A stretch of DNA of 64,000 bases. Origin: Candidatus Eremiobacter antarcticus. GTDB lineage: Bacteria; Vulcanimicrobiota; Vulcanimicrobiia; Eremiobacterales; Eremiobacteraceae. Position numbers and translations under genes: made by a program. The notes under the pieces were generated by a model. That model did no database searches. It worked only from the letters and a program-made list of their open reading frames with translations, and was not told where the DNA came from. The stretch lies in assembly GCA_003244105.1 (NCBI GenBank), contig QHBK01000002.1, positions 1 through 64,000 on the forward strand, read 5' to 3'. This document shows positions 10,533 to 28,866 of the stretch, piece after piece. Positions within the stretch are counted from its first letter, which is position 1, and every line of letters begins with the position of its first letter.

Positions 10533-10740
10533 GTGAGCCTCCGGCACTCAGAGAAATCTACTAGCATGGGCCAACGGGGCGCACAAGGAGCCAACACACC
10601 GGAAATCGGCCCATCTCGCCCCGGCTAACCTGAATGTTGCACACCGAAGACGCGAGCAGCTGGCGCCTCCCGGTCGTCGCGCCATCTCCGACAGTCGTTA
10701 GCGTCAACTTTCCCGCTCGGAAGTCGCGGCGCGGAATTGG

Positions 10741-13566
10741 CTATGTGCCCGGACGTCCGGTGTCTTTGTGAATGGAGAAACGGATGATACGGCCGCCGAT
10801 GCCGTTAGCCGCGGCAGGCTGTGCATACTGGGCCCCCTGGACAACTGGAATTGCCACTCCAAATCCAAGGTATTCATACGGAAAGCTGTTTGTGTTGAAA
10901 AGATTGTCGACGGTTAACTGCATGGTCGTCGTGGAGTTGTATTTCTTGGACGCCGCGGCGCGTGCCACGAAAAAGGCCGGTAACTGCTCCGGATTGTTCG
11001 GCCCGTGGTAGGTTTCGCCAAACGCGAAGAACCACTCGTTGCGCGTGCGATAGTTGATCTCGGCATTTCCCGTCGAGTAGGGCGCATTGCCCGCAGAATA
11101 TGTACCGCCGATCGTGAAGTTTTGGTTCGGTAGAACCGTTTGGTTCACGGCAAATTTCGCTCCGCCCGGTAAGTCGTAGAACCCGGGCGGCAAGTTATAA
11201 GTATACGCCCGCATCAGCGCGCTACTCAACGTATAGCCAAAACCGTAAGCGGGATAACGGTAAAGCGCAAGCTCCAGACCATAATATCGCGCATCGGACA
11301 AGTTATCTGGTCGATACTGATAGTACGGGTGAACCCCGTGGCCCAGATGGTCGTCGTAAGTGCCTACTAGTTCGGTTGAATAGTAGAATTGGTTTTTGAG
11401 GTTAGTCAAATAATAATCGGTGCTAAAGACAGTTTGACCATCGCGGCCCAGCCGCCAGTCGCCTCCGATATCGTAGCCAACGGCCGTTTCCGGACGAATA
11501 TTGCCATTTGATGTATAGGCCACATAAATGCTGCTGCCCTGATCAAAGCTTACGATGGGTACTGAGGTGTTGTTTATTAACTGAGCAAAAGGAGGCGTGT
11601 TAGAACTACCAACCGCTAAGCGCAGCGACGTATCTAGATTTGGATGATAGGTCAGACCAATTCTACCGTCATCGCGATGCTGGAAGTTGCTGCTGTAGGT
11701 AAGGCCAGCGTCGAGAGAATGGTACAGGTTGTAGGCTTGTAGATAGTTGGCGAGGGTGACGCTCAGCTTATCCGTTGGATTCAACAACGCGCGCAGCATG
11801 AGTGTCGTAGTAGTCTGACGCGCTCCCGCGGGAATACTGAGTGAAGTTAAATACTGCCCGGAAGACGCGTATGAATACACATCGTACGAGCCCGCCACCC
11901 ACTTGTCGAGCGATAATGTGTACATGTTGTTCCCAGAGGGATGATCCCACTCAAGCGATGCACCGTTCATGTGGTCGCGTCTGTCCTCGACGTTGTAGGA
12001 GTTGGTCAGCCCCAGCGCCGCTGGTTGGCCATTGAAATCGGTCGGTGTTGAAGGAAGCGTGAACGGCCCACCGGCTGGACCACACATCCCCGAAAAACCA
12101 TCGCTGCTTTGACCCAACGGGCACAACTGAACGGTGCCCCATACTTTCGAAGTTTGCGTGCCGCCTTTTGAGCCACCGTAGATGTAGCTATTGAGATGCA
12201 CGGAGTACCAACGCGCCAGGAAAGTGTCGGTCTTACGGTGCGTACGGAGTTCGCCCTCGAAGATGGGTTCAGAATTATTGAAGAAACCGGGAACCTGCGC
12301 GTCGAGATTTATCAGTAGGTTAGCATTGGTCGGCAGCGCGCCTGCATAGCCCGATCCCGGAGTAAAGGTTGAATTCTGGACAAATATATAGCCCCCACCC
12401 CCACCATAACCACCTTGAGTACCGTAGTAACTTCCAGTGAAACTGGTGGCATCCGAAAAATGGTATCGAAGCTTCGCGAGCTGGCTATGAGTATAGCCTC
12501 CTTCCGTGTAGGGATTGATGGGCTGAGCAACCGCCGAGACGCTCGCGTCCCAAAAAGGTGCGCTACCACCCACACTACCATAGCCGACAGGTTGTGCCGC
12601 GACCGCGTGTCCGTTGATGCTGTTGTTAAAAATCGGTTGATAAACATTCTTGGGGATCCAGGGTCCCTCGGTCAGATCGTTCGCAAGTACAAACGCATAT
12701 CCGAGCTTTCGATTTCCTGACGTACCAGTTGCGGTGAAGCTATACGGGAAGCCGCCAAAGTTGTCGGCGGCTGCATCGATGCTAAAGTATGGGTAACTCG
12801 TCGGCTCTTTCGTGCGATAGTTAACAGCGCCATTGATAGCACCCGTAATAACGTTGGGTGCCGCACCCGGCCCTTTAATGATCTCAACGTCCTCAAAAAT
12901 AGCGGTGTTCAACAAATTTGTGCGGTACGCACCTTGAATGCCATTGGCCAAGGGATGCCCGTCTATGGTCTGCTCAGTCTCATAAGCTAGCCCATCTCGA
13001 ACGGTCACAAACTTAGGGGCAAACTGATTCGAAACATTGTAGCCGCCAAGCGTATCGGCAACCACGCCGGGAATTTGGTCAAAGATGCGTGACACGGACG
13101 TCTGACCTTGCGTTTGAAAGACCTGCGGACTAAGCACGACCTGGGAGGCAGTCGAACTGTTGAACACGTTGCGAGTGGCGGATGTTACTACACGGCCTAG
13201 GGTGCGTACACTCGTGAACGTTGGTTGCAACAATTGCACATCCACTCGCTGCATCGCAATCCCCGCGCCCAAGAAAATATCCGTGACCGTCGCTTTTGTC
13301 CAGCCTTCCTTTGTCACGGTGAGGCTAAATCTACCGTTCGGCACGTTGGTAAACGAGTACGTGCCATCTTTTCGTGTGATGGTCTTGCGAGGCGCTTGCA
13401 TTACATTGCCTTCTAGCGTCACTCCCGCATTCGGAACGACGTTGGTCTGGTTATCAGTGATAGTTCCTGAAATCACGCCCTGTTGCCCTGAATCTGCACG
13501 AACAGCGGCAGGCGCTAGGAGTAGGCACACGATAAACAAGACGATGCCGGTCAGTCTATTCTTCAT
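10741..13566 (-). CDS. TonB-dependent outer-membrane receptor with N-terminal carboxypeptidase-regulatory-like domain
   Basis: 941 aa. A signal peptide (hydrophobic residues about 7-23) is followed by a carboxypeptidase-regulatory-like beta-sandwich (about 28-113, GVISGTITD start and DGTYSFTNVPNG core), a plug domain (about 130-250, with ATRNVFNSS and the IFEDVEIIKGPGAA motif), and a 22-strand-type barrel to the C-terminus. GGAGG lies 6 bases before the ATG. Receptors with this layout (SusC/Oar-like) import large ligands such as peptides, siderophores or oligosaccharides using TonB energy. The substrate cannot be read from sequence. Its neighbours are propellers and peptidases, so uptake of proteolysis products or a peptide ligand is a reasonable inference. 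No SusD-like partner is present. Confidence 0.9.
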   Translation of the reverse strand: MKNRLTGIVLFIVCLLLAPAAVRADSGQQGVISGTITDNQTNVVPNAGVTLEGNVMQAPRKTITRKDGTYSFTNVPNGRFSLTVTKEGWTKATVTDIFLGAGIAMQRVDVQLLQPTFTSVRTLGRVVTSATRNVFNSSTASQVVLSPQVFQTQGQTSVSRIFDQIPGVVADTLGGYNVSNQFAPKFVTVRDGLAYETEQTIDGHPLANGIQGAYRTNLLNTAIFEDVEIIKGPGAAPNVITGAINGAVNYRTKEPTSYPYFSIDAAADNFGGFPYSFTATGTSGNRKLGYAFVLANDLTEGPWIPKNVYQPIFNNSINGHAVAAQPVGYGSVGGSAPFWDASVSAVAQPINPYTEGGYTHSQLAKLRYHFSDATSFTGSYYGTQGGYGGGGGYIFVQNSTFTPGSGYAGALPTNANLLINLDAQVPGFFNNSEPIFEGELRTHRKTDTFLARWYSVHLNSYIYGGSKGGTQTSKVWGTVQLCPLGQSSDGFSGMCGPAGGPFTLPSTPTDFNGQPAALGLTNSYNVEDRRDHMNGASLEWDHPSGNNMYTLSLDKWVAGSYDVYSYASSGQYLTSLSIPAGARQTTTTLMLRALLNPTDKLSVTLANYLQAYNLYHSLDAGLTYSSNFQHRDDGRIGLTYHPNLDTSLRLAVGSSNTPPFAQLINNTSVPIVSFDQGSSIYVAYTSNGNIRPETAVGYDIGGDWRLGRDGQTVFSTDYYLTNLKNQFYYSTELVGTYDDHLGHGVHPYYQYRPDNLSDARYYGLELALYRYPAYGFGYTLSSALMRAYTYNLPPGFYDLPGGAKFAVNQTVLPNQNFTIGGTYSAGNAPYSTGNAEINYRTRNEWFFAFGETYHGPNNPEQLPAFFVARAAASKKYNSTTTMQLTVDNLFNTNSFPYEYLGFGVAIPVVQGAQYAQPAAANGIGGRIIRFSIHKDTGRPGT

Positions 13567-13847: not shown

Positions 13848-15707
13848 TCACTGGGTCACGTAGCCACGTACGCGCACTCCAAAGTAGGGTTGAGTTGTGG
13901 GTCCCATGTGCACTCGCCAGACAATCGCCTCGGAGAGCGCCCCTGGCTCTAACACGCTGAGGGTTCCAAGTGCGCGCGAGTAATCAAACACAGCACCGAC
14001 AGCCTGTTTACCGTTGGTCGCGTTTAGAATCGAAAAGCTGTTCTTGGGATCGACGCGATCATACTGAATATCGTATGGATCAATTGTTTTCTCTACGGTC
14101 AGGGCGACGGGCCCGTATAGCGTTTGCTTTGAGATATTCCGAATCTGGACCGGAATCGTATAAACCTTCTCGGCCTCGTTGAACGAAATCGTCCCGAACG
14201 TGACTGCTACCTTCTTCGTGATGTCGGCTGGTATTTTACGGCTAACGCTGGGGAGCTTCGGCAGCACTTGAACCTTCGCCGTGAACAACTGGAAGGTGCC
14301 GGTCCGGCTATCCGCCCACATTGGATGGAATGCCCCGTTTAGGTCTGTCGTAATCCCCATATAATCTCCACCGGCCGGATAGCGCGTAAACGCGGACATA
14401 AAGCGTAGTCCCAGCAACGGCGTCGCCCGATCGTTTTCTAAAGGTATGAGTCGCGCATTGCCTGGACCCTGCGGGAATGACGCCATCGACGAAACTGGCG
14501 TAGAGCGAAGAAACGTACGGCCGCCATCTAGCGAAGCTGTAAAGTACTCGCGATAGCGATCCTGGCGATAAGAGTCACGGGTGTCTAGCCAAGCAATACC
14601 TACAACGCCATCACGGTTCACGACGACTTCGGGTTGATACTGACTCGCCCACCGGGGTGTGTCGGGATCAACAAATTTTGAGGCGCTCCAGCTCCGCCCA
14701 CGCGTATCTGAATATGCAAACCATGCTTTAGTGTTGCCGCTACGCCTATCGCTCCACACCATGTAAATCCGATCGCGCCGGGGGCCAGTACTTGGATCGT
14801 CCGCGAAGTCGGCAAAGGTTTGCTCATCAAAGCGGCCAGCGCGGCTGCGCGCCATCATGGCCTCATAACTGCCGGTGTATTGCCGCTCCGCACGCCGGGA
14901 TGAGCTAAACGTTCGCCCCCCATCATCGGATTCAACAGTCCAAATCGTCGAATAAGTGCTCTTTTTCGCCTTTTTTGTTTCGAACTCAAAGTCTTGATAA
15001 GGAAGGATGAGCGCTCCGTCGCTCAGCACGAGCGGGTTTGCGTCGTTTATACCAATCTTCTTGTGGCCGCTCGCTGCTAAGACTGGACCCTGAAAAGAAC
15101 GTCCGCCATCTGCTGAATGCACAACGCCAACATTATAGTCTGGGTACGGTCCGTATAGAATGCCGATATAGATGCGACCACGATTACGCGATGCGGATTG
15201 ATCGATTACGACTTGTTCATGATCGAAACTCCCCAGTTTCGTGCGATAACCGAAATTGAACGGTATGCTCCAGCTTCGGCCCCCATCGCTTGAACGATAA
15301 AGCATCATCTGGTCATGTGGTACATTTTTTAGCGTCACGTTGACGAGACTGACATAATAGGCTGTGCCGTTTGGACCGAATGCGACTTGTGGGTCGGCAC
15401 TACCACGGGCGAAGATTTGTGGAGTGACCGCGTCTGTCCAAGTGTAACCGCCGTCGATGGAAGCGTATGTTTTGGTCATGATGTCGGACCCGGGTTTTAG
15501 AAAAGTTATCGATGTGCCCAGAATGTTGAGCGGGTTCACCGGATTGGCGGCCGCCATTACTTCCACGTGCGCGGCGTCGCCATCATTGCTAACCTGGATA
15601 TTCGGTCCAACAGCAATCAACGGTGCGGCACTCGTGCGCATGGCGGTCACCATGATCGACACGGAGACCAGTGCTGTGACTACCGAACCGAAGACATTTC
15701 GCTGCAT
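13848..15707 (-). CDS. Secreted six-Asp-box beta-propeller protein (sialidase-like fold), paralogue 3
   Basis: 619 aa from the ATG at 15707, chosen because TTGGAGG lies 7 bases upstream and a normal signal peptide (MQRNVFGSVV, ending near TSAAP) follows. The longer open frame from 15827 lacks these. Asp boxes: SIDGGYTW, SSDGGRSW, SADGGRSF, SDDGGRTF, SDTRGRSW and SLDGGRTF, predicting six blades. It shares FDHEQVVID and GGDYMGITTD signatures with paralogues 1 and 4, and a C-terminal domain with the ISKQTLYGPVALTVE pattern. It is divergently transcribed from the S9 peptidase gene; the 248-base gap must hold both promoters, though I see no strong consensus boxes. Enzymatic function is unassigned. 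Confidence 0.8.
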   Translation of the reverse strand: MQRNVFGSVVTALVSVSIMVTAMRTSAAPLIAVGPNIQVSNDGDAAHVEVMAAANPVNPLNILGTSITFLKPGSDIMTKTYASIDGGYTWTDAVTPQIFARGSADPQVAFGPNGTAYYVSLVNVTLKNVPHDQMMLYRSSDGGRSWSIPFNFGYRTKLGSFDHEQVVIDQSASRNRGRIYIGILYGPYPDYNVGVVHSADGGRSFQGPVLAASGHKKIGINDANPLVLSDGALILPYQDFEFETKKAKKSTYSTIWTVESDDGGRTFSSSRRAERQYTGSYEAMMARSRAGRFDEQTFADFADDPSTGPRRDRIYMVWSDRRSGNTKAWFAYSDTRGRSWSASKFVDPDTPRWASQYQPEVVVNRDGVVGIAWLDTRDSYRQDRYREYFTASLDGGRTFLRSTPVSSMASFPQGPGNARLIPLENDRATPLLGLRFMSAFTRYPAGGDYMGITTDLNGAFHPMWADSRTGTFQLFTAKVQVLPKLPSVSRKIPADITKKVAVTFGTISFNEAEKVYTIPVQIRNISKQTLYGPVALTVEKTIDPYDIQYDRVDPKNSFSILNATNGKQAVGAVFDYSRALGTLSVLEPGALSEAIVWRVHMGPTTQPYFGVRVRGYVTQ

Positions 15708-15955
15708 TGTTGCCTCCAAAAAAGCGCGCATCCGGATGAATCGCGCGAGCGCTTTGTACACTGTAACCATTTGACCCTGCGCTCGCATTGGACGAGGGAT
15801 TATGGCGAACGCCGAGGCTGAACTCACACCTCAGCGGTCGCTCTCTTTCCAAAAGGGGACCATGCGTCAAAGAAAAGCCTCAACCGCAAATCTATCCCGG
15901 ATAACCGCCATGGGTCGACGACAGGCATTCATCTTCGACTTCCCAAGATAGATGA

Positions 15956-18256
15956 ATGGGCAACCGCAGGTTGTTTGCACTGGTAGTTGCGACCGCAAGC
16001 GCTCTCTGTTGTTACGCTTACCCGGCTGGCAAAACGCCGGTCTCGGTTGAGGACGCTATCTCAATGGTCCGCATACAAAGGACCTATGCGAACGGCGAAC
16101 AGCTTGCAGCGGTTTCACCGGACGGACAGCGCTTTGCCAGCGTTACTTGGTATGGTGATCTGAAGCGTAATGTTGACGTTTTTTCACTGGTGCTCTTTGG
16201 CCGAGATAGAGATGGGCGGTGGCGAGGCCCGAATACCGTCTATTCGATCGATTTTCATGGGGATCCGGAAAATCAGCACGCGACCCCGATCGCACATTTG
16301 CAATTCTTGCCAGATAACAAGACTGTCACCTTTTTGGCCACCTTGCACGGTGAGCCACGCCAAGTATTTAGCATCGACATAACCAACCGTAGACTCAGGC
16401 AGCTCACGGACAACCCTACGGAAGTGGTCGCCTATGGCGCAGCTGCCGACGGACGTTCTCTTCTGTATGCGGCAACGAGCCCCGCCCGGCAGGCTGTTGT
16501 GCGAGGACTGTATCGCGAGGGCTTTTCCATTGCGCAGCACCCTGGTACCGACTACGGTTTTGGCATACTCCTAAGCGCGCTCACCTACGGGGTTAATGAG
16601 CTTTCCGCAGACAGAACGGTCCAATTCTATTATATCAATTTCTCAGGGCAGAGGCGTTTGTTATACGACACCGCGCGCAATCCAACGGTCGCGCAACGGA
16701 CGGCAGACAGTTTGAGTGGTCTTTATAATCTGATCACGAGCGCTCCCTCGGGGGCTTTGGCCGTGATCTCCCCCTATAACCCCGCGACTGATCCACTCGA
16801 CCTTCATGCCTACGCTCGCTTCCCGAAACTCAACAGTTCAGCACCATTGAGCAACCACCGAGTGCAAGACGTCTCGTCGTCGTTTGGCCTGGTGAATCTC
16901 TCAAGCGGGTCCCTGCGAAGGCTGCTGAACGCGCCGACCGACCCGTTTGATTCCTTCGGCGGCCTTGAGGTGCTATGGTCGCCCGATGGCGAAACGGTCA
17001 TCGTTCCCTCAATGTTGCCGCTTGACGTTGCCGACAAGGTGGAACGTGCACGCCGCGCTGCGATGACCAAACAGCCCTATGTGGAGGTCAATCCCCGCAC
17101 CGGCGCGTTGTCGGCATTCAACGTGCACGGCGACTGGAGCCTGGCGGGCCGCACCAACAAGGCATTGGTCTTCTTGCGTAATGCCTACGCCCATGATAGT
17201 GACAGTGCGCATACGTTGGCGCTCTTGAACAAGTCCGGTAGTGCCTGGGGAAATTTGCAACGTGTTGATCCAGCCGCGTGCCCGCGCATAAACCTTCGTT
17301 ATCCAGCCACCGTATCGAACGCACTGTTGTTGGCCGTCCACGACGGCCTTATGACGCCGGCCGAGTTCGCCACATACGATTTGACTTCGCACGCAACAAG
17401 GATTATTAGCGACCTGAACCCTCAGCTTCGTCAGCGCTCATTTGGCGCGGTGAGCAGAATCCGCTGGAGCGGTCCTTATGATAAGAACACTTCTTTCGGA
17501 TATCTCATTAAACCGGTCAGCTACGTTGCCGGCAAGCGCTACCCACTCGCATATCTTTTCAAAGACGAAGGCTATTATCCCGAAGACAACTCCTTCATCA
17601 TCGACGGTGTGGACCAACTTAATGCATTCGCGATTCAGACGTTGGCAAATGACGGATTCGTGATCTTGTTTGCGCCTGACCCGCTATCAGTTCGCAGAGT
17701 CATCGAAACCCCTGCCGAACTCATTCACGTCCGCGCGCATGTTGAGAGCGGTATCGCCTACCTCGACAAGCTAGGCTTGATTGATCCGCAACGCGTGGCA
17801 ATCTCCGGATGGAGCCGCGCCGCGTATTACACAGATTGGCTGATTGCGCACTCGAATATACGCTTCGCCGCGGCAGCGGATCAAGACGGTGGTGGCAACT
17901 ACGATCTCTTTATGCGCAAAAACGGCGGCGCCGGGAAGAACGAGCAGCTAGTAGACGATATTGTTGACCTGCGGCTGCGTACCATTCACACTCCGCTGTT
18001 GAGCGAAGAGCATGGCCCGATAAGTCTGATCGGGCAGTCAACGCTTATCGCCCGCCTGCAGGATATGCATAAGCCGTTCGATTTTTACTACTACTCGGGC
18101 GAACCGCACACACTGTTAATGCCCGCACACCGCTACACATCACTAACCGTTCACACCGATTGGTTGCGGTTTTGGTTGCAAAATTATGAAGATCCGCAGC
18201 CCAGCAAAGCGCTGCAGTACGCATACTGGCGGACGTTGCGACCGTTGACCAAGTGA
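15956..18256 (+). CDS. Prolyl-oligopeptidase-like (S9) peptidase, possibly isopeptidase-like
   Basis: 766 aa with an N-terminal signal peptide (LFALVVATASALCCYA). The first 450 residues or so are a beta-propeller with SPDGQRFA- and SPDGETVI-type blades. The C-terminal part is an alpha/beta hydrolase with the nucleophile in SGWSRAAYY (S620) and the catalytic His in GEPHTL (H718). The nucleophile elbow is G-W-S-R-A rather than the usual G-x-S-x-G. The family cleaves short or specialised peptides. Some S9-like enzymes (Atxe2 type) open lasso peptides and sit near TonB receptors, as here, but no lasso precursor or maturation genes are visible, so that reading is weak. It is probably followed by the S8 gene 138 bases downstream on the same strand. 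Confidence 0.82.
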   Translation: MGNRRLFALVVATASALCCYAYPAGKTPVSVEDAISMVRIQRTYANGEQLAAVSPDGQRFASVTWYGDLKRNVDVFSLVLFGRDRDGRWRGPNTVYSIDFHGDPENQHATPIAHLQFLPDNKTVTFLATLHGEPRQVFSIDITNRRLRQLTDNPTEVVAYGAAADGRSLLYAATSPARQAVVRGLYREGFSIAQHPGTDYGFGILLSALTYGVNELSADRTVQFYYINFSGQRRLLYDTARNPTVAQRTADSLSGLYNLITSAPSGALAVISPYNPATDPLDLHAYARFPKLNSSAPLSNHRVQDVSSSFGLVNLSSGSLRRLLNAPTDPFDSFGGLEVLWSPDGETVIVPSMLPLDVADKVERARRAAMTKQPYVEVNPRTGALSAFNVHGDWSLAGRTNKALVFLRNAYAHDSDSAHTLALLNKSGSAWGNLQRVDPAACPRINLRYPATVSNALLLAVHDGLMTPAEFATYDLTSHATRIISDLNPQLRQRSFGAVSRIRWSGPYDKNTSFGYLIKPVSYVAGKRYPLAYLFKDEGYYPEDNSFIIDGVDQLNAFAIQTLANDGFVILFAPDPLSVRRVIETPAELIHVRAHVESGIAYLDKLGLIDPQRVAISGWSRAAYYTDWLIAHSNIRFAAAADQDGGGNYDLFMRKNGGAGKNEQLVDDIVDLRLRTIHTPLLSEEHGPISLIGQSTLIARLQDMHKPFDFYYYSGEPHTLLMPAHRYTSLTVHTDWLRFWLQNYEDPQPSKALQYAYWRTLRPLTK

Positions 18257-18393: not shown

Positions 18394-21372
18394 ATGCGAC
18401 AAAAGCCAAATTTGAAGCCGCTCGCAAGAGCCATAATTCTTGCCGGTCTTTCCCTTATCGTTTCAGTATCGGTAAGGCAGCCAACCTCCCGCATCGATGC
18501 GACCGACGTTAGGAGCTTCTTCTATAAAGACAGCCGTGCGGATCTTGCGCAAGCAAAAGCGAACGGCGTGCAGGACGTTTCCCTTGTGTTCGCAGCAAAG
18601 CGTGGAATGAACGGTGTGCTAGCCCTCGCTATTGAGGCAAGTGGTGGGACGCTGCGGGTTCGAGATGATGCGATCAATTATATTCGTGCGCGGGTGCCAC
18701 TAAACCAGATTGACGTAATCATTCAAAGCGGCGCGGTTGAGTCTGCTGCGTTTAACGTTGGCTCGCAAAAGTCTGCCGCCCGTCCGTTTGCCCGAACGCA
18801 CCTCCGGCCTACCGATTCGGAGTTCGAACGCCAATGGCCGCCGAGACAGAGCGACTTTCCATTGACCCACCCTTTTTCTCCGCTGCACGACATGGATGCC
18901 GACGAGTTTCAAAGAGCACACCCGACCTTCGACGGTCGGGGTGTGGTCGTGGCCGTGCTCGACGGCAACTTCGACTTTCTCTTGCCGGAGCTCCAAAGCG
19001 CGATGACGGCCGACGGAGCCGCGGTTCCTAAATTGGCTGATTTTCGGATCTCAACCGATCCCACGGAAAACCGCTCACCGCAGTGGGTCAACATGAGTGC
19101 CCAGGTCACAAGCGCTGACGGCAAAGCGACCTTCAAGGGCAAGCATTTCGTACTACCCCATCCTGGAACGTACCGCATTGGTTTTTTTAGCGAGCGGGGC
19201 TGGGGTGAGGACGACGCGGCATACATCCACAAAGACATCGATCGCGACGGTAACCCGCCGGGTGATGATGGTCTTTTCGGCGTCCTTTGGGATGAATCGC
19301 ACAATTTGGTCTATGTCGATACCGACCGCAGCGGAGACTTTTCAAAAAAGAATGCCATGCGGGACTATCGCGCCGCGCATCAGACCGGCGTGTTTGGCCA
19401 CATTCGTCCAAGTCGAGCGGTCCGTGATTCGATCGGCTTTGCGGTTCAGACAGATCCGAAGGACAAGTATGTCGCGATCGTTGTGGGCATTTACCAGCAC
19501 GCTACCAGCATTGTCGGAGCATTAGCCGCAAACCCGCGGCCGCATGGCCGCTTTCGGGGCATTGCGCCAAACGTCCAGCTTGCGTCCATCAGTTACGGTG
19601 TCGGTCCACTTGGAGCAATGATCGATGCATTACGAATGAGCTTCGAGGATCCGAAAATCGACGCCGTTTTGTTTGAGTGGGACTATGAGCTATTTGGGCG
19701 CTACCTACTGCGCGATGGCCACAACGTTGCCAGCATCATCATCGACCGACTCGCGCAACGCTACCAAAAGCCTATCTTTATCCCCGGTGACAACTCTCCC
19801 GGTTTAGCTCTAGCCGCCGAACTCGGAATGCACACTCATGCGATCATCGTCGGAGGTTATGAAAGCCGCGATGCGTACCGACGAAATCTTGGGTTATTTA
19901 CAAAGTATCAGGATAACTTGCACTGGGGAGGTTTGTCGCACGGCCCCGGAGCGAACGGTGCCTTGAAGCCGGATGTTCTGGCACCGTCGGGCAGCCTCGG
20001 TCTGGACCCCGGTTATCGCGATACCGACACCATCGGCGGGGAGCTCAAAGGCCTTTTTCACCTTCCGCCCGGATATGGTATCAGCGGTGGGACTTCTCAA
20101 GCGACGCCGCTTGCAACGTCTGCTGCCGTACTGCTGATCAGCGCAGCCAAACAAACTCATACGCCCTACAATGCCGACCGACTTTACTATGCGCTACGCA
20201 ACGGGGCACGGTTTATTGCACACCACCAAGCTTACGAGCAGGGGAACGGATTGGTTGACGTTGCTCAGGCGTGGAGCATTCTGCACCAGCTGAGGGATAA
20301 TTCACCGTTGACGTTTGTGAGTGCCGCACCGGTACAGACAGTCAACAGTAATCTCTTTCAAACTCCCAACATTGGACCGGGGCTGTACGAGCGCGAAGGT
20401 TGGAATGCAGGCATGCAGGCAGCTCGCGCAATCGTCGTGACCCGAACTTCAGGACCGGTTCATCGAATGCGGTTCCAAGTGGGCTGGATCGGGAACGACG
20501 GCACATTTAGCGGCCCGCCATCGGTATGGTTACCTTTAAATGCGCCCACGGCGATTCCGATCCGAATCCACGTTCGCAAGCGCGGCCCGCACAGCGCCCT
20601 GCTCACATTGAACAATGATCAGATGCACGGAGCTCAATATCGCGTTATGACAACCATCGTCGCGGCGAACGAGTTTGACGAAGCCCGCGGCTTTGTGGTT
20701 AAGGACAGCATTGACGTGGCGCGGCCAGGCGATGGCGGATTTTTTCTTAATGTTCCATCGCGTGTAAACGTGCTCAAAGCCACCATAAGCGTTGAGAAGG
20801 CCAACGTTCTCGCGTATTGGATTTCCCCAGACGGGAATGAAGCAGCGGGCGAATGGTCGCGCGGTTCAGACGAGGGCGGCGAGCGGACTCTAGTTATGCC
20901 AAGGCCGATGGCGGGCGTGTGGGAGCTGGTGCTGGACAACTCCTTCGCGGACGAAATGTCATATGATCCTGATAGGCCGCGTCCTCTGCTGGATACACAC
21001 GTCAGCCTGGAAGCAAGAGTTTATCGAGCTGAGATTGACAGCACCCCAGGCACGAAACAACAACCACTTACATTCGTCGCGACAAATACTCTGGCAGCAG
21101 CGCCAGCTCGCCTGGTGGGCAACTCGCTTGCAAGTGTTTTCCAGGCGGCCCCGACAATCGCTCAGGATGATCTTCAAGAGTATGCGATTGATGTTCAGCC
21201 AGGGTCGGACAGCGTAGGGGCGGCGGTCTCTAGTGCGCCAACCACAGACTTGGATTTATACCTGTTCAACTGCACAAAAAGTAAATGCTCGCTGGTGGCA
21301 CAAGGTTCATCTCGCGGGGGGAACGAGCTTGTGGTTGCTAATCATCCTTCCGCCGGGAGGTGCTTACGGTAG
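18394..21372 (+). CDS. Secreted subtilisin-family (S8) serine peptidase, frameshifted near the C-terminus
   Basis: 992 aa as it reads. The full triad is present: Asp in VAVLDGNFD (D190), His in YQHATSIVG (H369, replacing the usual HGT) and Ser in GTSQATP (S568); the oxyanion Asn is in PGDNSPG (N467). A long Asp-His insertion carries an EF-like acidic loop (VDTDRSGDF, 308-316), also found in degenerate form in the other S8 protein of this island. The N-terminus has a short signal-like segment. The frame stops at 21370 just after SAGR. A second open frame to 21626 continues the homology, so the gene has lost one base, most simply from the G run at 21355-21357. The protease domain itself is intact. 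Confidence 0.85.
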   Translation: MRQKPNLKPLARAIILAGLSLIVSVSVRQPTSRIDATDVRSFFYKDSRADLAQAKANGVQDVSLVFAAKRGMNGVLALAIEASGGTLRVRDDAINYIRARVPLNQIDVIIQSGAVESAAFNVGSQKSAARPFARTHLRPTDSEFERQWPPRQSDFPLTHPFSPLHDMDADEFQRAHPTFDGRGVVVAVLDGNFDFLLPELQSAMTADGAAVPKLADFRISTDPTENRSPQWVNMSAQVTSADGKATFKGKHFVLPHPGTYRIGFFSERGWGEDDAAYIHKDIDRDGNPPGDDGLFGVLWDESHNLVYVDTDRSGDFSKKNAMRDYRAAHQTGVFGHIRPSRAVRDSIGFAVQTDPKDKYVAIVVGIYQHATSIVGALAANPRPHGRFRGIAPNVQLASISYGVGPLGAMIDALRMSFEDPKIDAVLFEWDYELFGRYLLRDGHNVASIIIDRLAQRYQKPIFIPGDNSPGLALAAELGMHTHAIIVGGYESRDAYRRNLGLFTKYQDNLHWGGLSHGPGANGALKPDVLAPSGSLGLDPGYRDTDTIGGELKGLFHLPPGYGISGGTSQATPLATSAAVLLISAAKQTHTPYNADRLYYALRNGARFIAHHQAYEQGNGLVDVAQAWSILHQLRDNSPLTFVSAAPVQTVNSNLFQTPNIGPGLYEREGWNAGMQAARAIVVTRTSGPVHRMRFQVGWIGNDGTFSGPPSVWLPLNAPTAIPIRIHVRKRGPHSALLTLNNDQMHGAQYRVMTTIVAANEFDEARGFVVKDSIDVARPGDGGFFLNVPSRVNVLKATISVEKANVLAYWISPDGNEAAGEWSRGSDEGGERTLVMPRPMAGVWELVLDNSFADEMSYDPDRPRPLLDTHVSLEARVYRAEIDSTPGTKQQPLTFVATNTLAAAPARLVGNSLASVFQAAPTIAQDDLQEYAIDVQPGSDSVGAAVSSAPTTDLDLYLFNCTKSKCSLVAQGSSRGGNELVVANHPSAGRCLR

Positions 21373-21626: not shown

Positions 21627-21703
21627 CCCGAAGTGGACAACGTTCCTGCCAGGTTATATGAGGCGCGTAAACTCACCAAGTGATATACCGTCGGAGGTTG
21701 AGG

Positions 21704-23587
21704 ATGCACTGTTTTCATCGCTTACTGGCCGGCTTTGCGGCGCTTGCCCTTATTGCATTGCTCGTCACCTCAACCCGGGAGGGGCTTAACTCCGCACGAG
21801 CGGCCGACACCGTGCGCATCACGGTCGAGCCAAACATCTTGGTAACCCAAGATATAGATGCGCCCCACACTGAGACCTCATTGGCCACCGACGCGGCAAA
21901 TCCAAGACGGTTGCTGGGTGCGGTAACGACGTTTGCCCGCACTGGTCAAGGGCTCTATGATAAGCCGCAAGCATCTCTCGATGGCGGGTATACCTGGGCT
22001 GACTCGACAGTACCGGAGTCACGGGAGGGGAGCGGCGATCCCCAAACCGCTTACGGTATCACTGGCACGAGCTATTTCGTCACGCTCAACAATAAGTACG
22101 GAATGCTATTTTACCGCTCGATCGACGGCGGTATAACTTGGAAAAAGCCACTCGCTCTGGGGCACTGCGATCATGAGCAAATCGCAATCGATCGGACAAG
22201 TGGACCGCATCGAGGACGCGTCTATATCACGGCCGAGCACATCCTGCCAAAGTCAAGGCGCTTGCAAGGCGACCGCGTCCTCGAGTTGTGGCGCTCCGAT
22301 AACGATGGCCGCTCGTTCACCTCGAGGGTTCTTGAGAGCGGTCATGTCGCCGCGGACAAACCCTTCGCTGACGGCGGGCTTGCGGCGGAAGGCCTTGCAG
22401 TACTCAGCGATGGCTCCCTGGTCGCCGGTGTCGTGCGTTATGTCACCGAAAGAGACTTTCCATATGAACGCTTCTATACGACCGTGTCGAGAGACGGCGG
22501 CAATACGTTTGGCCCCGAACGGAAAAGCGTGGATTTGAATTTCGGCGGACAGTCGAAAATGATGGATCACCAGCTTGCGGTTCAACATGGCGACATGACG
22601 CGCTCGTTTTCCTTGTCTGTCCTGGCCGCCGACACCGACAAAAAGAGCCCTTATCGCGACCGCTTGTATGTCGTGTACGGCGTAATTTCCGCCAACAATT
22701 CGCGACTCGATACTATTTATTCGATTGATCGCGGACGCTCTTGGAGCGCTCCCGTTGGCGTCGTATCGGGCGCGGGCGGGGGGACAGATTTCCAGCCGGC
22801 GATTGCCACCAATGCTCGGGGTGAAGTTGGCATTCTTTACTATCACGCACCAGCCGACAACAGCAACAATCGTTTTCACGTGTATGTTACTGTCTCGCTG
22901 GATGGAGGGAAGTCGTGGTTACCAAGCGCGCGCGTCAGCTCCCGTAGCTCGCTCCCGCACGCCCGGGGCAATATGTTGCCCATGGGTTTCTATACGCAGA
23001 GCAGCAAGAAGGAACTGAGCGCGTCCGTCATTTCCGCCAACTCCCGATGGCCAGAGGGCGGTGACTATATTGGTTTCAGTGCAGACGCTAGTGGTGTGTT
23101 TCATGCGCTCTGGCCCGACAGCCGCACGGGAACGTACCAACTCTACGCTGCGCGCGTCAACGTCGCCGGGCCGCCGATGCCTTCGGCCGAAGGCCCTATC
23201 CAGCTAGTCAACGATAAGCTACAGCTTATTTTCGACCCATCACGCTACGATGCAAGCGCGGGTGATTTCATTTTCCCCATCCGCCTGCGCAATGTATCCA
23301 AGGGCGTGATCTATGGGCCGCTCACGACGACCTTGAAGGGCACGGTGGACAAGTACATAATCGCGGAGCACCGAAAACGGGTGCCCTACGTTATACGCAA
23401 TGCTGCAAACGGTCAACGTGGCCCAGGCGCAACGTTTGACTATACGACGGCGCTGGGCGGCACAGGGCGACTCTCACCGGGCGCCCTTACTGACGCCGTT
23501 GAGTGGCGAGTGCACTTAAGCGACCCTACCCGGCTCGACACATTTCAGTTTCACCTTGACGCGCACGGACGGTACTCAGCACCCTAA
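21704..23587 (+). CDS. Secreted six-Asp-box beta-propeller protein (sialidase-like fold), paralogue 4
   Basis: 627 aa from the ATG at 21704, preceded 7 bases upstream by GGAGG. A GTG at 21680 would place that site inside the gene. A signal peptide (FAALALIALLVTS) is followed by six Asp boxes: SLDGGYTW, SIDGGITW, SDNDGRSF, SRDGGNTF, SIDRGRSW and SLDGGKSW. It shares CDHEQIAID and GGDYIGFSAD signatures with paralogues 1 and 3. In the fifth blade the usual VWSDxR is replaced by VVYGVIS. The C-terminal domain has the VSKGVIYGPLTTTLK pattern. It is the last gene before the tRNA-fragment border of the island. No substrate can be assigned. Confidence 0.8.
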   Translation: MHCFHRLLAGFAALALIALLVTSTREGLNSARAADTVRITVEPNILVTQDIDAPHTETSLATDAANPRRLLGAVTTFARTGQGLYDKPQASLDGGYTWADSTVPESREGSGDPQTAYGITGTSYFVTLNNKYGMLFYRSIDGGITWKKPLALGHCDHEQIAIDRTSGPHRGRVYITAEHILPKSRRLQGDRVLELWRSDNDGRSFTSRVLESGHVAADKPFADGGLAAEGLAVLSDGSLVAGVVRYVTERDFPYERFYTTVSRDGGNTFGPERKSVDLNFGGQSKMMDHQLAVQHGDMTRSFSLSVLAADTDKKSPYRDRLYVVYGVISANNSRLDTIYSIDRGRSWSAPVGVVSGAGGGTDFQPAIATNARGEVGILYYHAPADNSNNRFHVYVTVSLDGGKSWLPSARVSSRSSLPHARGNMLPMGFYTQSSKKELSASVISANSRWPEGGDYIGFSADASGVFHALWPDSRTGTYQLYAARVNVAGPPMPSAEGPIQLVNDKLQLIFDPSRYDASAGDFIFPIRLRNVSKGVIYGPLTTTLKGTVDKYIIAEHRKRVPYVIRNAANGQRGPGATFDYTTALGGTGRLSPGALTDAVEWRVHLSDPTRLDTFQFHLDAHGRYSAP

Positions 23588-23668: not shown

Positions 23669-23692
23669 CTGCCACCATTTCTGCCACCATTT
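23669..23692. repeat. Exact tandem 12-bp repeat near the island end
   Basis: CTGCCACCATTT occurs twice back to back (23669-23680 and 23681-23692). It lies about 115 bases inside the tRNA-fragment border. Short direct repeats at this distance from a core site are typical of arm-type binding sites of tyrosine integrases. That role is inferred from position only. Confidence 0.45.
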
Positions 23693-23805
23693 TTCCGTTA
23701 TTCCGTGTGTTAGATGGGATTGGATAGAGATCTGGTGTGCGCGGACTGCGACTGTTCAAGCCTCCCCGTCACTTGTCATCACTAATTGGCTGGTCGGTAT
23801 CAGAA

Positions 23806-23850
23806 TTGACACTGTAGAGGTCAGAGGTTCGAGACCTCTCGCGCCCACCA
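23806..23850 (+). other. 3' fragment of a tRNA-Val(GAC) gene; putative attR of an integrated element
   Basis: The stretch reads as the last 45 bases of a tRNA: anticodon loop TTGACAC (anticodon GAC), 3' anticodon strand TGTAG, variable loop AGGTC, T-arm AGAGG-TTCGAGA-CCTCT with a perfect 5-bp stem (23823-23839), acceptor strand CGCGCCC, discriminator A and CCA (23848-23850). The 5' half is absent: no GGGCGCG acceptor strand or D-arm lies within 80 bases upstream, and the five bases before the loop (CAGAA) pair poorly with TGTAG. A truncated 3' tRNA end beginning at the anticodon loop is the usual scar of site-specific integration. The intact copy is expected to the left of the window. Confidence 0.75.
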
Positions 23851-23908: not shown

Positions 23909-24469
23909 ATGTCGAAGTTGATCTACATCACCAATACGTCGCTCGACGGTTACATCGAGGACGAAACCGGTGCCTTCGATTGGGAGAATTCCGATCAAGT
24001 ACACCCGTTCGTCACAGAGTTGTTGCGGCCGATCGGAACTCATCTCTATGGGCGGCGACTGTATGAGACGATGGCCTACTGGGATGCGCCGGTGGAGGGC
24101 TATCCGCTCGAACACCGCGACTTCGCACAGGTGTGGCAGAGGGCCGAGAAGATCGTCTTCTCACGCACGCTAACCGGCGCTACGACGCGCAACACACGTA
24201 TCGAGCGGAACTTCGACGTCGAGGCTATTCGGAAGCTCAAGCGGGAGTCGGAGCACGACATCATCATCGGTGGCGCCGAGCTTGCGGGGCTCGCGCTCGA
24301 AGCCGATCTCGTCGACGAATGTCACCTGTTTCTCAACCCGGTGATCCTCGGCGGCGGAAAGCCGGCATTCCGAGCCGCCTTACGACGGAATCTCGAACTC
24401 TATGAGACGCGCCGTGTCGGCACCGGAATAGTCCACTTGCACTATCGAATACGACGCGGCACCCCTTAA
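23909..24469 (+). CDS. Dihydrofolate reductase / RibD C-terminal family protein
   Basis: 186 aa. The N-terminus SKLIYITNTSLDGYIED, the GRRLYETM segment and the IIIGGAELAG and PVILGGGKPAF motifs are those of the RibD_C/DHFR-like fold (YyaP/YwjB-type reductases). These are cytoplasmic NADPH-binding proteins whose substrate is usually unknown; they are not the housekeeping folate reductase. The start is fixed by the conserved N-terminus. No Shine-Dalgarno is present: a 7-bp-stem hairpin occupies the 19 bases before the ATG. It is the first gene on the chromosome side of the putative att site and precedes the LanC-like gene by 42 bases on the same strand. Confidence 0.87.
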   Translation: MSKLIYITNTSLDGYIEDETGAFDWENSDQVHPFVTELLRPIGTHLYGRRLYETMAYWDAPVEGYPLEHRDFAQVWQRAEKIVFSRTLTGATTRNTRIERNFDVEAIRKLKRESEHDIIIGGAELAGLALEADLVDECHLFLNPVILGGGKPAFRAALRRNLELYETRRVGTGIVHLHYRIRRGTP

Positions 24470-24511
24470 AAGCCGTTCGCGGCCGGCAGCTCGGCTGACG
24501 AGGAGGAAACG

Positions 24512-25726
24512 ATGGCCGCAGCAATGCTCTACGAGCCGGCGCAGTTCGAGCCTCTGATCGACGAGCCGTGGGCTCCGGCGCGTGTTGAGGATTCAATCGC
24601 CGCAATCGTCGCCGACGCCGACGCGGCGTTTGATCCGGATGCCCTCTGGCCGGCGGAGGAATGGGACGGGCGCGAGGAGCCGCTGCCGCTGAAGAGCTTT
24701 TACGTCGGTGCAGCCGGTGTCATCTGGGCGCTCGATGCGCTGCGGCGAAACGGCCACGCCGAGAGCTCGCTCGATCTCGCCGCCGCGGCGCTGCACACGC
24801 TCAAACTTAAGCGGGCGGCACCGGACTTCACCGCGGATGAGCATTACCATCCTGGCTCGCTCTTCTGTGGCGAGACTGGACCGCTGCTCGTCGCCTTCAG
24901 GCTGACATCCGATCCGGCGCTCGTTGACGACCTCCATTCGCTCGTTCGCGCGAACGTACACAACCCGACGGACGACATCAATTGGGGAGCACCCGGCACC
25001 CTTCTCGCAGCCGTGGCGATGGGCGAATGGACCCGAGAGCCGCGCTGGGAGGAGGCGGCGCGCGAGACAGCGACAGCGCTACGTGGCCGGCGGGGCGACG
25101 ATGGGCTGTGGCGGCAGGATGATGACTACCGCGGCGTCGGCACGCTTCACGGCGCCGCCGGAAACACACTTGCCCTGCTCCGATTCGAGCCGGACGACGC
25201 GCTTGCGAGCGAGACCGCAGGCGTTCTCAGCCGGCATGCGTTCCGCCAGGGCGGCCTCGCCAATTGGCCAGGCTCGCCGCGTCCCCAGCTCGCGCGGCCG
25301 CGAGATGGTCGGATCTGTCTTCAATGGTGCACCGGCGCTCCCGGTGTCCTCGCCGGCGCCTGGGACTACCTGGACGAGGACCTCCTCCTCGCCGCCGCCG
25401 AGCTCATCTGGCACGCGGGGGCTCACAGTGACGAGAAAGGCCACGGCCTCTGCCATGGCACATCGGGTAACGGCTTCGCACTTCTCAAAGCCTTCGCACG
25501 CACAGGCGACGAGCGCTGGCTCGAACGCGCCCGCCGCTTCGCAGTGCACGCGCTCGCCCAAGCGGAGCGGATCGCGGCCGCGAACGGCCGGCGCCACTAC
25601 TCACTCTTCACCGGAGACGTCGGCACCGCACTCTTCGCCGCCGCCTGCCTCGACGCCGACGCGCGCTACCCGATTATCGAAGCCCTTCTAGAGCCGGCGA
25701 AGAACGCGCAAAAGCGCGGACTTTAA
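24512..25726 (+). CDS. Stand-alone LanC-like (lanthionine synthetase C family) zinc protein
   Basis: 404 aa with a strong GAGGAGG site 7 bases before the ATG. The alpha-toroid fold is indicated by repeated G-x-x-G motifs (VGAAGVIWAL about 65-74, GAPGTLLA about 159-166, LHGAAGNTLAL about 212-222, TGDVGTALF near the C-terminus). The zinc ligands of LanC proteins are present: Cys273 in QWCTGAPG and Cys314-His315 in LCHGTSGNG. LanC enzymes add Cys thiols to dehydroamino acids; eukaryotic-type LanCL homologues act in other thiol chemistry. There is no LanB, LanM, transporter or obvious precursor peptide nearby, so a RiPP role is unsupported and a LanCL-like role is as likely. High-GC codon use differs from the island to its left. 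Confidence 0.88.
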   Translation: MAAAMLYEPAQFEPLIDEPWAPARVEDSIAAIVADADAAFDPDALWPAEEWDGREEPLPLKSFYVGAAGVIWALDALRRNGHAESSLDLAAAALHTLKLKRAAPDFTADEHYHPGSLFCGETGPLLVAFRLTSDPALVDDLHSLVRANVHNPTDDINWGAPGTLLAAVAMGEWTREPRWEEAARETATALRGRRGDDGLWRQDDDYRGVGTLHGAAGNTLALLRFEPDDALASETAGVLSRHAFRQGGLANWPGSPRPQLARPRDGRICLQWCTGAPGVLAGAWDYLDEDLLLAAAELIWHAGAHSDEKGHGLCHGTSGNGFALLKAFARTGDERWLERARRFAVHALAQAERIAAANGRRHYSLFTGDVGTALFAAACLDADARYPIIEALLEPAKNAQKRGL

Positions 25727-28700
25727 TCGTGGCGCCAGAGCTGATGGATCCGCATGGTGAAGTCCAGGAATACGCCGTTGTGCTCCCGGCCAGAGTCGAA
25801 TACTGTTTGGTCGATCTTCCCACCGCTGAATCCGAGCGCCGCTCGGGTCTCTGGCGAAGTCAGATATCCGGCCTGCCACACGAAACCGCTCTCGTGAAAA
25901 CCGCCGCTGTTAGAAAGAATTTGGCGCAGTTCCCCGCTGACGTCATAACGCTGACCGATGAGGTAGCGTGCACGAGCCTGAAGGAATTGAATGGTTGAAC
26001 CGCTCGTGACGGCCGGTGACACTTGCGTCCGCTGATTGCGGGTCGCGAACTTTCCATACAGTTCAAAACGCGGCGAGACGCCTTCAATCCCTTCAATCGA
26101 CACCGTAGCCGCTTGAGCGACTATGTTGCGGTTGGCCAGCAGCTGATTCTGCTGCACGATCTGCCCTGGCGTGAGCAGCTGCGTCGGGAGCAGGCCCGGG
26201 TTGTCTTGAAACTGATACGAGAGAAGCCAATTATGATTGTCGGCGCGTGGATCGCGAAGGGCGAAGCCGACGTTCAGCTCGCTCGATGGCGGCATGCCTC
26301 CGAGGAGTTGGTTGGCCGCGGCTTCTCTATCGTATGACGCCAAGAGTTTGTTGGCGACATTGATGATGCCCGCGGCAGAGACGTGCACTACGGTGTTGGT
26401 GCCGTAGCTCGATGCGCTTTGTTCAAGTCGGGCACTGGCCAGGAAATCCTTAACGCCGATCAGCTCAGCACCGACATGATAGCTCGTGCCTCCTGTGATG
26501 CCCAAGCCGGCAGTGTTGGTCGACACCGCATATGGTTGGGCGAACTGCAGACCGGCCGCTGTCAGGTTGAACAGCGACCCCGTCGCATTCTCATACCCGA
26601 TGTCAGCGCGCACGTGCTTAGAAATCGGGAGGCGGCTATTGAGACCGATCTCCTGTTGCGCCGTAAATCCACCCATTCCGTTGACCAGCGAATATTTCGT
26701 CGTCAACTCAGTGAATTTGTCCAAATGACGGTCCACAACGGCGTCAAGCGAGGTGAAATGGCGATCGCCGAAGCTGCCGCCATGCAGCGCTTGCATCGTC
26801 GCGCCGAGCAGAACGCCCTCCGCCACTTTGTACGAGACGCCGAGCGCCTCGCGTCCGGGATAAAGCGCAGTGCTGGGACCTGACAGCGTCGAATCAACCT
26901 CGCCAAGCGCTGAAAAGCGCGGACCGAGTGGGGCCAGCACGCGGGCCAATCCCTGTGTGCTGTTCGTGTTGAGCGACGGTTGCAGATAGTTCGAGTACGA
27001 ATTGGCGCTCAACGCGAGCCGTAGCGAGGCCGCGCCAAGCTTCTCCTCTAGGCTTGCGCCGATAGTGCCCAGGCGCGTATCGACCTGGCTGCCGGGGGGC
27101 GTGCTCGTGCCGGGGTTTAGGTAATCGACGGGTGAGGTCAACACTGCTGGCGCCGTACCCCTGTCGCGCTCCAGGCTGCCGAAAAGCGAGAGGGTCGTTC
27201 GCTCGCTTGCGCGATCATCGGTGTTCAATGCATAACGAGTTTGACCAGGTACGAAACTCTGGGAGGTCGCGTCGTTAGCGAAGCCGGCGTCCGAATGGGT
27301 CACGTAGGCATCGCCGACGAATCGTGATCTTCCACCGATGTGTTCCTCGACGCGATACGCATCGCCGCTCATCGCCGCCGAGGCTTCGGGAAGCAGATGC
27401 GAATGAGCATATTCGGCCAGTAACCGGGAGTCTGCGCCTTGCGCGACCGCAATATCCGCCGAATGCAAGGCGTATTTTCGCGCTCCCATATTCTCGTTGA
27501 AGCTTGAAATTCCAAATGCGGATGGGTTGAGCTTCACCCCGCTCCAATTATACTGCAACCGGCCTCCGATACCGTCCGCGCCCTGGCCCCCGTCGTATTG
27601 ATATGAGGCGACAATGTGCTGAACAAGCGTGACGCCGCTTTTTGGATCGATCAGCGTCCGTTCGATGGGCTGCCGGAAAAGCAACGAACCGCTAATAGGA
27701 TTGAGATCGTAGTCGACGCCTGGCACGAGCCGCTTCACGCTGACTTCTGTGCCTGGCCGGTCAAGTTTCTCAAGCTCGAGGCTCACGCTTTGGCTTCCGG
27801 GCACGACCAGTCGTCGTGAGAGGTAGTAGGCCCCGGATGTGCCGTCGGGCGCGATGATGTCGCGCTGGAACGCCTGCATATTTGTCGCGTACAATCCCGT
27901 GAGGTCGAGCTTACCGAAGCCGTAGTTGGCCTTCGCGCCGTGAAAAGAAGTCATCAGCGCAGCGTACGTCTGCCCGAGGGATGCAAACTCACTCGTATCA
28001 TAGTCGCCCCACTGCACGAAGTCCCTATTGTGTTCAAGGCGGACGTAAACGTTGTCCGAGCTGTTTGCGAGATGAACGGCATCGGAAGAATCGCCATAGA
28101 TGGGATATTTAGGGCGGCAGGCCGTGAGCTCGTGCGTTGAGCCGTAGATCGGCGTCAGGCCGGAGCAGTCGCCGTTGATCGGCGCTTGATTGTCGAGCGC
28201 CGCCGTGAGCTGTGTCTGTCCGATCGCCCCCTGGGTGAAAGCCGTGAGCTGATACGGCGCATAGCTGCCATTCGTGAGAAAGTGGTCGAAGGGTGCATAA
28301 AAGTTCGAGACCTTTGGACCGAGGTGCAGGTCCAGCGCACCCGCGGCGATGTTGGGCCGGAGCGCGGTCGTGAACCTCACGAGCGTTTGCGCGGCGACCT
28401 TGCCCGAATACGCGTTCACAATAGCCATTCCCGAGACCGTCGGCGCACGCAACACCGCCTGGAAGGCGCCGTGCCTCGCGATGACATGAAAGCCAAGCGC
28501 AGCCGGGCCGAAATCCGCACCGGCAAAACTTCCGAGTGAGGTCGTCAACATGATGTCGGCATCTCGGTCCAGAGGCTCGCCATGGACGCCCGCAATCGTG
28601 CCGCTGATCGTCACGAGTCCGACGCCATCCGCCGGCACGCTGGCGGCGACCGAGTCAAGCCGCAACGTCGCGTACGATGGCGCAGGGTCAACGGTCGCGG

Positions 28701-28866
28701 AGGACGCCGGGGTGACCCCTCCCGTCTCGGATTCGCTCGCAAGAGCAGGTGTGGAGACGACGAGCGCCGTGGCCATAACGGCAATCGCTAACCAGAGCGC
28801 AGCCACCCAGGTGCGGATGAACGATAACGTTTCAACCGTGTGGAAGCGTGCGATGCGTCGCGCCAT
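25723..28866 (-). CDS. Large outer-membrane beta-barrel protein with N-terminal invasin/Ig-like domain
   Basis: 1047 aa. A signal-anchor region (hydrophobic residues about 20-42, ending PALASES) is followed by an Ig-like Big_1/invasin-type domain (SVPADGVGLVTISGTIAG, to about 170). The remainder, about 850 residues, shows alternating hydrophobic and polar strands with aromatic girdles, as expected of a large barrel or barrel plus surface beta domain. I do not recognise a characterised family. It starts 4 bases after the stop of the upstream DUF11 gene, so the two are surely co-transcribed and probably form a surface complex or exporter/passenger pair. It converges tail-to-tail with the LanC-like gene, overlapping its last 4 bases. 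Confidence 0.65.
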   Translation of the reverse strand: MARRIARFHTVETLSFIRTWVAALWLAIAVMATALVVSTPALASESETGGVTPASSATVDPAPSYATLRLDSVAASVPADGVGLVTISGTIAGVHGEPLDRDADIMLTTSLGSFAGADFGPAALGFHVIARHGAFQAVLRAPTVSGMAIVNAYSGKVAAQTLVRFTTALRPNIAAGALDLHLGPKVSNFYAPFDHFLTNGSYAPYQLTAFTQGAIGQTQLTAALDNQAPINGDCSGLTPIYGSTHELTACRPKYPIYGDSSDAVHLANSSDNVYVRLEHNRDFVQWGDYDTSEFASLGQTYAALMTSFHGAKANYGFGKLDLTGLYATNMQAFQRDIIAPDGTSGAYYLSRRLVVPGSQSVSLELEKLDRPGTEVSVKRLVPGVDYDLNPISGSLLFRQPIERTLIDPKSGVTLVQHIVASYQYDGGQGADGIGGRLQYNWSGVKLNPSAFGISSFNENMGARKYALHSADIAVAQGADSRLLAEYAHSHLLPEASAAMSGDAYRVEEHIGGRSRFVGDAYVTHSDAGFANDATSQSFVPGQTRYALNTDDRASERTTLSLFGSLERDRGTAPAVLTSPVDYLNPGTSTPPGSQVDTRLGTIGASLEEKLGAASLRLALSANSYSNYLQPSLNTNSTQGLARVLAPLGPRFSALGEVDSTLSGPSTALYPGREALGVSYKVAEGVLLGATMQALHGGSFGDRHFTSLDAVVDRHLDKFTELTTKYSLVNGMGGFTAQQEIGLNSRLPISKHVRADIGYENATGSLFNLTAAGLQFAQPYAVSTNTAGLGITGGTSYHVGAELIGVKDFLASARLEQSASSYGTNTVVHVSAAGIINVANKLLASYDREAAANQLLGGMPPSSELNVGFALRDPRADNHNWLLSYQFQDNPGLLPTQLLTPGQIVQQNQLLANRNIVAQAATVSIEGIEGVSPRFELYGKFATRNQRTQVSPAVTSGSTIQFLQARARYLIGQRYDVSGELRQILSNSGGFHESGFVWQAGYLTSPETRAALGFSGGKIDQTVFDSGREHNGVFLDFTMRIHQLWRHD

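Follow-up and report, generated by a model that had tools for sequence, protein, structure and literature searches.

Insertion of mobile elements into tRNA genes is a common, textbook mechanism. In IncP-type (Trb, MPF_T) integrated conjugative elements (ICEs) that reside in tRNA genes, the integrase lies by attL, the 3' half of the tRNA forms the att core, and a trb operon, a TraG coupling protein, a TraI/MobP relaxase and a TraF peptidase are accompanied by cargo placed by attR. Islander-type tRNA islands (PMC4383910), which range from 2-200 kb in length, combine an intact tRNA gene and a displaced 3' fragment in the same orientation with an integrase inside the island and a crossover in the anticodon loop. 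In Myxococcus phage Mx8, attP lies inside the integrase gene and the integrase is altered after integration (PMC6070905, PMC4701971); the Islander paper notes Mx8 and SSV too (PMC4383910).

The locus described here resembles each of these systems. It lies in the window, a stretch of 64,000 nt forming the start of contig C2 (QHBK01000002.1) in a genome of 2.64 Mb and 19 contigs, and very probably represents the right attachment site (attR) of an ICE that measures at least 44.6 kb and occupies the host's only tRNA-Val(GAC) gene. Unlike the known tRNA-inserted IncP-type ICEs, it is found in an Eremiobacterota/Vulcanimicrobiota host and carries exoproteases and propeller proteins. Compared with Islander-type islands, it is split over two contigs, its length is a minimum of 44.6 kb plus a gap, its regenerated tRNA has lost the encoded CCA, and the downstream position of its tRNA fragment on the chromosome rests on a putative link between contigs C1 and C2. 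As in Mx8, the att core lies in the 3' end of a tyrosine integrase reading frame and integration replaces the last integrase residues, but the element is an ICE rather than a phage, is known from sequence, and exchanges 5-12 residues, against 112 for 13 in Mx8.

The tRNA-Val(GAC) fragment and its partner

At positions 23805-23850 the window reads ATTGACACTGTAGAGGTCAGAGGTTCGAGACCTCTCGCGCCCACCA, the 3' part of a tRNA-Val(GAC) from the anticodon loop TTGACAC (GAC) through the 3' anticodon stem, variable loop, T arm and 3' acceptor strand to the discriminator A and CCA. With up to three mismatches allowed, this pattern matched once in the window and never in 100 shuffles. Its 5' flank bears no relation to a tRNA-Val 5' half, and neither ARAGORN nor Rfam called a tRNA anywhere in the window, so that the fragment stands without its 5' half; the original prediction of such a fragment is confirmed by reading of the sequence, with both programs silent.

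The sole intact tRNA-Val(GAC) gene found in the genome, whose other Val tRNAs are TAC and CAC, lies at C1:31050-31121, and a tyrosine integrase gene (C1:31061-32377; Phage_integrase, E = 2.6e-22) stands directly 3' of it on the opposite strand, overlapping attL. The core pattern, queried with the last 28 bases of the fragment, occurs at two places in the whole genome, namely the fragment and this tRNA. The two copies form a 43-bp direct repeat (attL at C1:31079-31121 and window 23805-23847) with zero mismatches, in the same orientation and on the correct sides, and joining the outer flanks in silico yields a perfect 75-nt tRNA-Val(GAC) with CCA. An intact tRNA matching the last 45 bases, with an integrase nearby, had been proposed as the counterpart: the tRNA and the adjoining integrase were found, but the match covers 43 bases and lies on another contig, so that distance and physical continuity are inferred.

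The attR core (23805-23847, plus strand) is followed at 23848-23850 on the same strand by the host-side CCA of the original tRNA gene, which falls outside the 43-nt repeat. On C1 the regenerated tRNA has no encoded CCA and reads on as CCCA-TTCG. Since the displaced fragment keeps its CCA, as do the unoccupied tRNA-Val(GAC) genes of relatives, the direction of the exchange is clear. Regarding the empty site that was sought, no relative carrying both of the same flanks and no element was found, but unoccupied, CCA-bearing tRNA-Val(GAC) genes are present in related genera, one of which (genome G001, contig C45) shares the gene just upstream.

Both att copies are accompanied by a motif pair. In the window, CTGCCACCATT occurs on the plus strand at 23669-23679 (copy 1, on the P side of attP) and at 23681-23691 (copy 2). 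The underlying TGCC[AG]CCATT pair (window 23670 and 23682, 12 bp apart) lies about 115-135 bp left of attR, and its counterpart on C1 (31193 and 31204, 11 bp apart) about 70-90 bp right of attL. Neither the window nor C1 12000-51883 holds further copies, and 0.05 are expected per window against the 2 found. The paired 11-bp motifs, which recur in the same place in a homologous ICE of a relative (genome G006), are probable arm-type integrase sites on the two attP arms, and the attP junction is predicted to join window ...TATCAGAATTGACACTG... to C1 ...GCGCCCATTCGTCAAAG...

Base composition and codon use, which had been claimed to change at the fragment, indeed do so. GC in the window is about 0.56 before 24 kb and about 0.60-0.66 after it, and GC3 lies at 0.57-0.64 in the nine genes left of the fragment against 0.66-0.79 in the sixteen to its right, without overlap (Mann-Whitney p = 5e-5). 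On C1, GC is about 0.60 up to the tRNA and about 0.55 beyond it, and returns upwards at window 23.85 kb. The int/trb genes there have a GC3 of 0.54-0.64, and their mean of 0.595 does not differ from the cargo mean of 0.605 (p = 0.49), whereas the two host flanks average 0.73 and 0.71, with no overlap between element and flanks (p = 7e-9).

Other rearrangements can yield tRNA fragments, and the fragment alone would permit a degenerate or duplicated tRNA gene with no mobile element involved; this is hardly credible, since the sequence breaks off exactly at the anticodon loop, the 43 nt match without a single mismatch, the intact copy has an integrase beside it, both ends carry motif pairs, and the composition changes in the same place. 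A draft assembly combined with a sharp composition change might likewise point to a chimeric metagenome join of two organisms at 23.8 kb, but this explanation is highly improbable, because the break coincides with a tRNA site that makes biological sense, because a second break mirrors it at the partner tRNA of C1, and because the homologous ICE of an independent assembly shows the same left-end structure. The 43-bp repeat, the motif pairs, the GC3 separation and the perfect joined-flank tRNA instead identify 23805-23847 as attR and the genes to its left as cargo, and the partner tRNA with its adjoining integrase supports the earlier reading of the fragment as the scar of a tyrosine-integrase element in a tRNA gene.

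In the proposed mechanism, the attP would carry its own version of the tRNA-Val(GAC) 3' half. A tyrosine integrase would recombine this attP with the host gene, and the crossover would fall in the anticodon loop (TTGACAC), which the anticodon stem flanks. On C1, at the left end, the host 5' half and the element's 3' half would then make up a complete tRNA gene that encodes no CCA; the host's own 3' half, together with its CCA, would be displaced at the right end, in the window.

Conjugation genes, cargo and flank

The element would extend from C1:31079 to the end of C1 and, across an unsequenced junction, to window 23847, with the integrase, trbI-G-F-L-J-E-D-C-B, traG, the TraI/MobP relaxase gene and traF in its left part and the protease, propeller, TonB and LuxR cargo in its right part. 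From the integrase to the contig end (51883), C1 encodes TrbI, G, F, L, J, E, D, C and B, TraG, a TraI/MobP relaxase and TraF, so that by gene content a full type IV secretion set is present (TrbB, C, D, E, F, G, I, J and L plus TraF). TrbB, TrbL, TrbJ, TrbD, TrbE, the relaxase and TraF score above their NCBIfam cut-offs: the relaxase reaches 370 bits (TraI_MobP_relax NF041893; cut-off 250), TrbB_P 408 (305), TrbL_P 189 (129), TrbJ_Ti 137 (101) and TrbE 847 (PRK13830; 810), and the coupling protein reaches 629 (TraG NF010453; 586). Judged by its genes, the transfer module is IncP-type (Trb/MPF_T).

The cargo in the window, assigned by Pfam, begins on the minus strand with a BNR/Asp-box propeller protein (BNR_2; paralogue 1, 174-2057), a large AAA_16-TPR-LuxR regulator (2068-4899), an S8 subtilase of 1169 aa (4875-8384), a second propeller protein (8589-10547), a TonB-dependent receptor with a CarboxypepD_reg domain (10741-13566), whose homologues in relatives reach at most 39% identity, and a third propeller protein (13848-15827). 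On the plus strand follow an S9 prolyl-oligopeptidase-type peptidase (15956-18256), an S8 subtilase of 992 aa (18394-21372) and a fourth propeller protein (21680-23587), the last gene inside the right end. Within 174-23587 the four propeller proteins are all mutually paralogous, as are the two subtilases. A plausible role of this cargo, read from its domains, would be the digestion and import of external protein; PADLOC detected no convincing defence system in it. The claim that the element lies left of the fragment and covers the propellers, proteases, TonB receptor and LuxR regulator is thus supported, its continuity with the partner tRNA being probable.

That continuity spans a gap, in which extra sequence or a second att copy might lie. 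The right end of C1 and the left end of the window are unjoined in the assembly, a metagenome-type draft with an estimated completeness of 95.8%, because both contigs stop at short repeats common to other contig ends: the C1 repeat recurs at ends of C4, C12, C14 and C17, and the C2 repeat at C7. Neither overlaps between contig ends nor the end repeat elsewhere closed the gap, and in no genome examined do int/trb and this cargo occur on one contig. The C1-C2 link is putative, as is the mobility of the element. The tip TGTGTTAGCCAGTACTTCAT is common to five contig ends (C1 right, C4 left, C12 left, C14 right and C17 right) and probably belongs to the terminus of an insertion sequence that is present in several copies and absent from 60 relatives.

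Outside the element, the first gene (23909-24469, plus strand) encodes a RibD_C/dihydrofolate-reductase-like protein and has a host-type GC3. It was considered as an empty-site marker and rejected, since the gene is patchy, with its best relatives in another family. The next large gene (25723-28866, a 1047-aa protein) has no relative in 60 genomes, which makes the right flank lineage-specific over its first kilobases. The region 23909-28866 therefore combines a host-like GC3 with relatives that are patchy or none, and is perhaps an older insertion at the same tRNA-Val hotspot.

Relatives and recurrent use of the tRNA-Val site

A homologous ICE occupies the same tRNA-Val(GAC) on contig C196 of G006, an Eremiobacterota MAG of another genus in the same family; compared with the C1 element, its integrase is 66% and its TraG and TrbE each 75% identical, and the order of the conjugation genes is the same. 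TrbE relatives (E <= 1e-100) occur in 15 of the 149 genomes searched in the phylum. The closest ones found belong to the phylum Eremiobacterota/Vulcanimicrobiota (75 and 62%), and the nearest outside it are mostly proteobacterial (Thiomonas, Acidithiobacillus), at about 49-53% identity. Furthermore, trb modules stand beside other integrases in genomes G021 and G002, in G021 adjoining tRNA-Glu, which indicates that modules and integrases have been exchanged; no 3' tRNA fragment was detected within 80 kb of the tRNA-Glu/trb module of G021, the right end of which was not found. The integrase alone, used as a query, had no match in the named genomes, where the TrbE query gave matches. In IMG/VR contigs the tRNA core is absent, and the sole integrase relative found there is distant (28%).

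Copies of the tRNA-Val(GAC) sequence accumulate in several relatives: G005 has an intact gene plus at least 5 tandem 3' fragments, G002 an intact gene plus two, and G009 five copies on one contig. Behind two of the core copies in G005 stand in-frame remnants of integrase C-termini of this kind. In this family, tRNA-Val(GAC) is an insertion hotspot with tandem accretion.

Tandem fragments at the same tRNA in these three relatives, together with an unsequenced C1-C2 gap that ends in repeats, could also mean that two or more elements are stacked here, C1 holding the newest and the window the right-hand portion of an earlier insertion, which would have its att and integrase in the gap or would have lost them by decay. 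This scenario is unlikely: the whole assembly contains 2 core copies only, the motif pair at attR matches the C1 integrase's own pair, and GC3 is the same in both parts. A single ICE between attL on C1 and attR in the window remains the preferred reading.

At one locus of G005 (L108; G005:C18:186000-205999) tRNA-Val cores lie near 2856, 8444, 12650, 17679, 18520 and 18936, and the 3' fragments alternate with RHS-repeat genes and decayed integrase ends; the array looks as if islands bearing RHS genes had accreted repeatedly at a single tRNA. Other integrase genes or pieces in the genome to which the window belongs, at L004 (C19), L005 and L006 (C11) and L008 (C4), lie near tRNA-Lys(CTT), tRNA-Pro(GGG) and tRNA-Thr(CGT), and these four loci are candidates for further islands.

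The integrase frame within the tRNA gene and its significance

The integrase reading frame runs antisense into the tRNA, its last codons being tRNA sequence (...GRERSRTSDLYSVN-VALYP, then stop), so that the last residues differ between the integrated and the excised state: the integrated form ends in ...SVNVALYP, and the form with joined ends in ...SVNSDTDQPISDDK (...SVN-SDTDQPISDDK), each before a stop. The same overlap is present in G006, and at 23 further integrase loci of the own genome and its relatives the tRNAs lie outside the matched integrase gene.

Additionally, nine right-end copies from four genomes (three genera) encode KERK after YSV (YGV in one), in five nucleotide spellings whose differences are all synonymous, as seen in a post hoc test. 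YSVKERK stands antisense, just left of tRNA-Val core copies, at L109, L110, L111, L108 and L077. The restriction to synonymous differences hints at selection on the excised-form integrase tail; the excised tail of the element itself (NSDTDQPISDDK) is not KERK. It is conceivable, though doubtful, that in this Eremiobacterota family of ICEs and islands the host tRNA-Val gene serves the integrase as an inbuilt switch, whose tail swap would alter the activity or stability of the enzyme with integration state. In this reading the tail would be coded by the element, mostly as SVKERK..., in the excised form and by the host tRNA, as SVN[VA].LYP, in the integrated form. The relevance of the overlap is hypothetical, and a frame may also stay open across a tRNA incidentally.

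Among the titles and abstracts of the open literature, subscription papers aside, none describes an ICE in Eremiobacterota, Vulcanimicrobiota or WPS-2; conjugative elements thus seem to be undescribed in this little-studied Eremiobacterota/Vulcanimicrobiota phylum, the mechanism itself being already known. The analysis delimits a mobile element in a phylum without a described ICE in the searched literature; secreted proteases, propellers, a TonB receptor and a regulator probably move with this element as one block. The overlap between integrase and tRNA offers a testable case in which the C-terminus of an integrase would be set by its integration state, a situation otherwise known in few elements.
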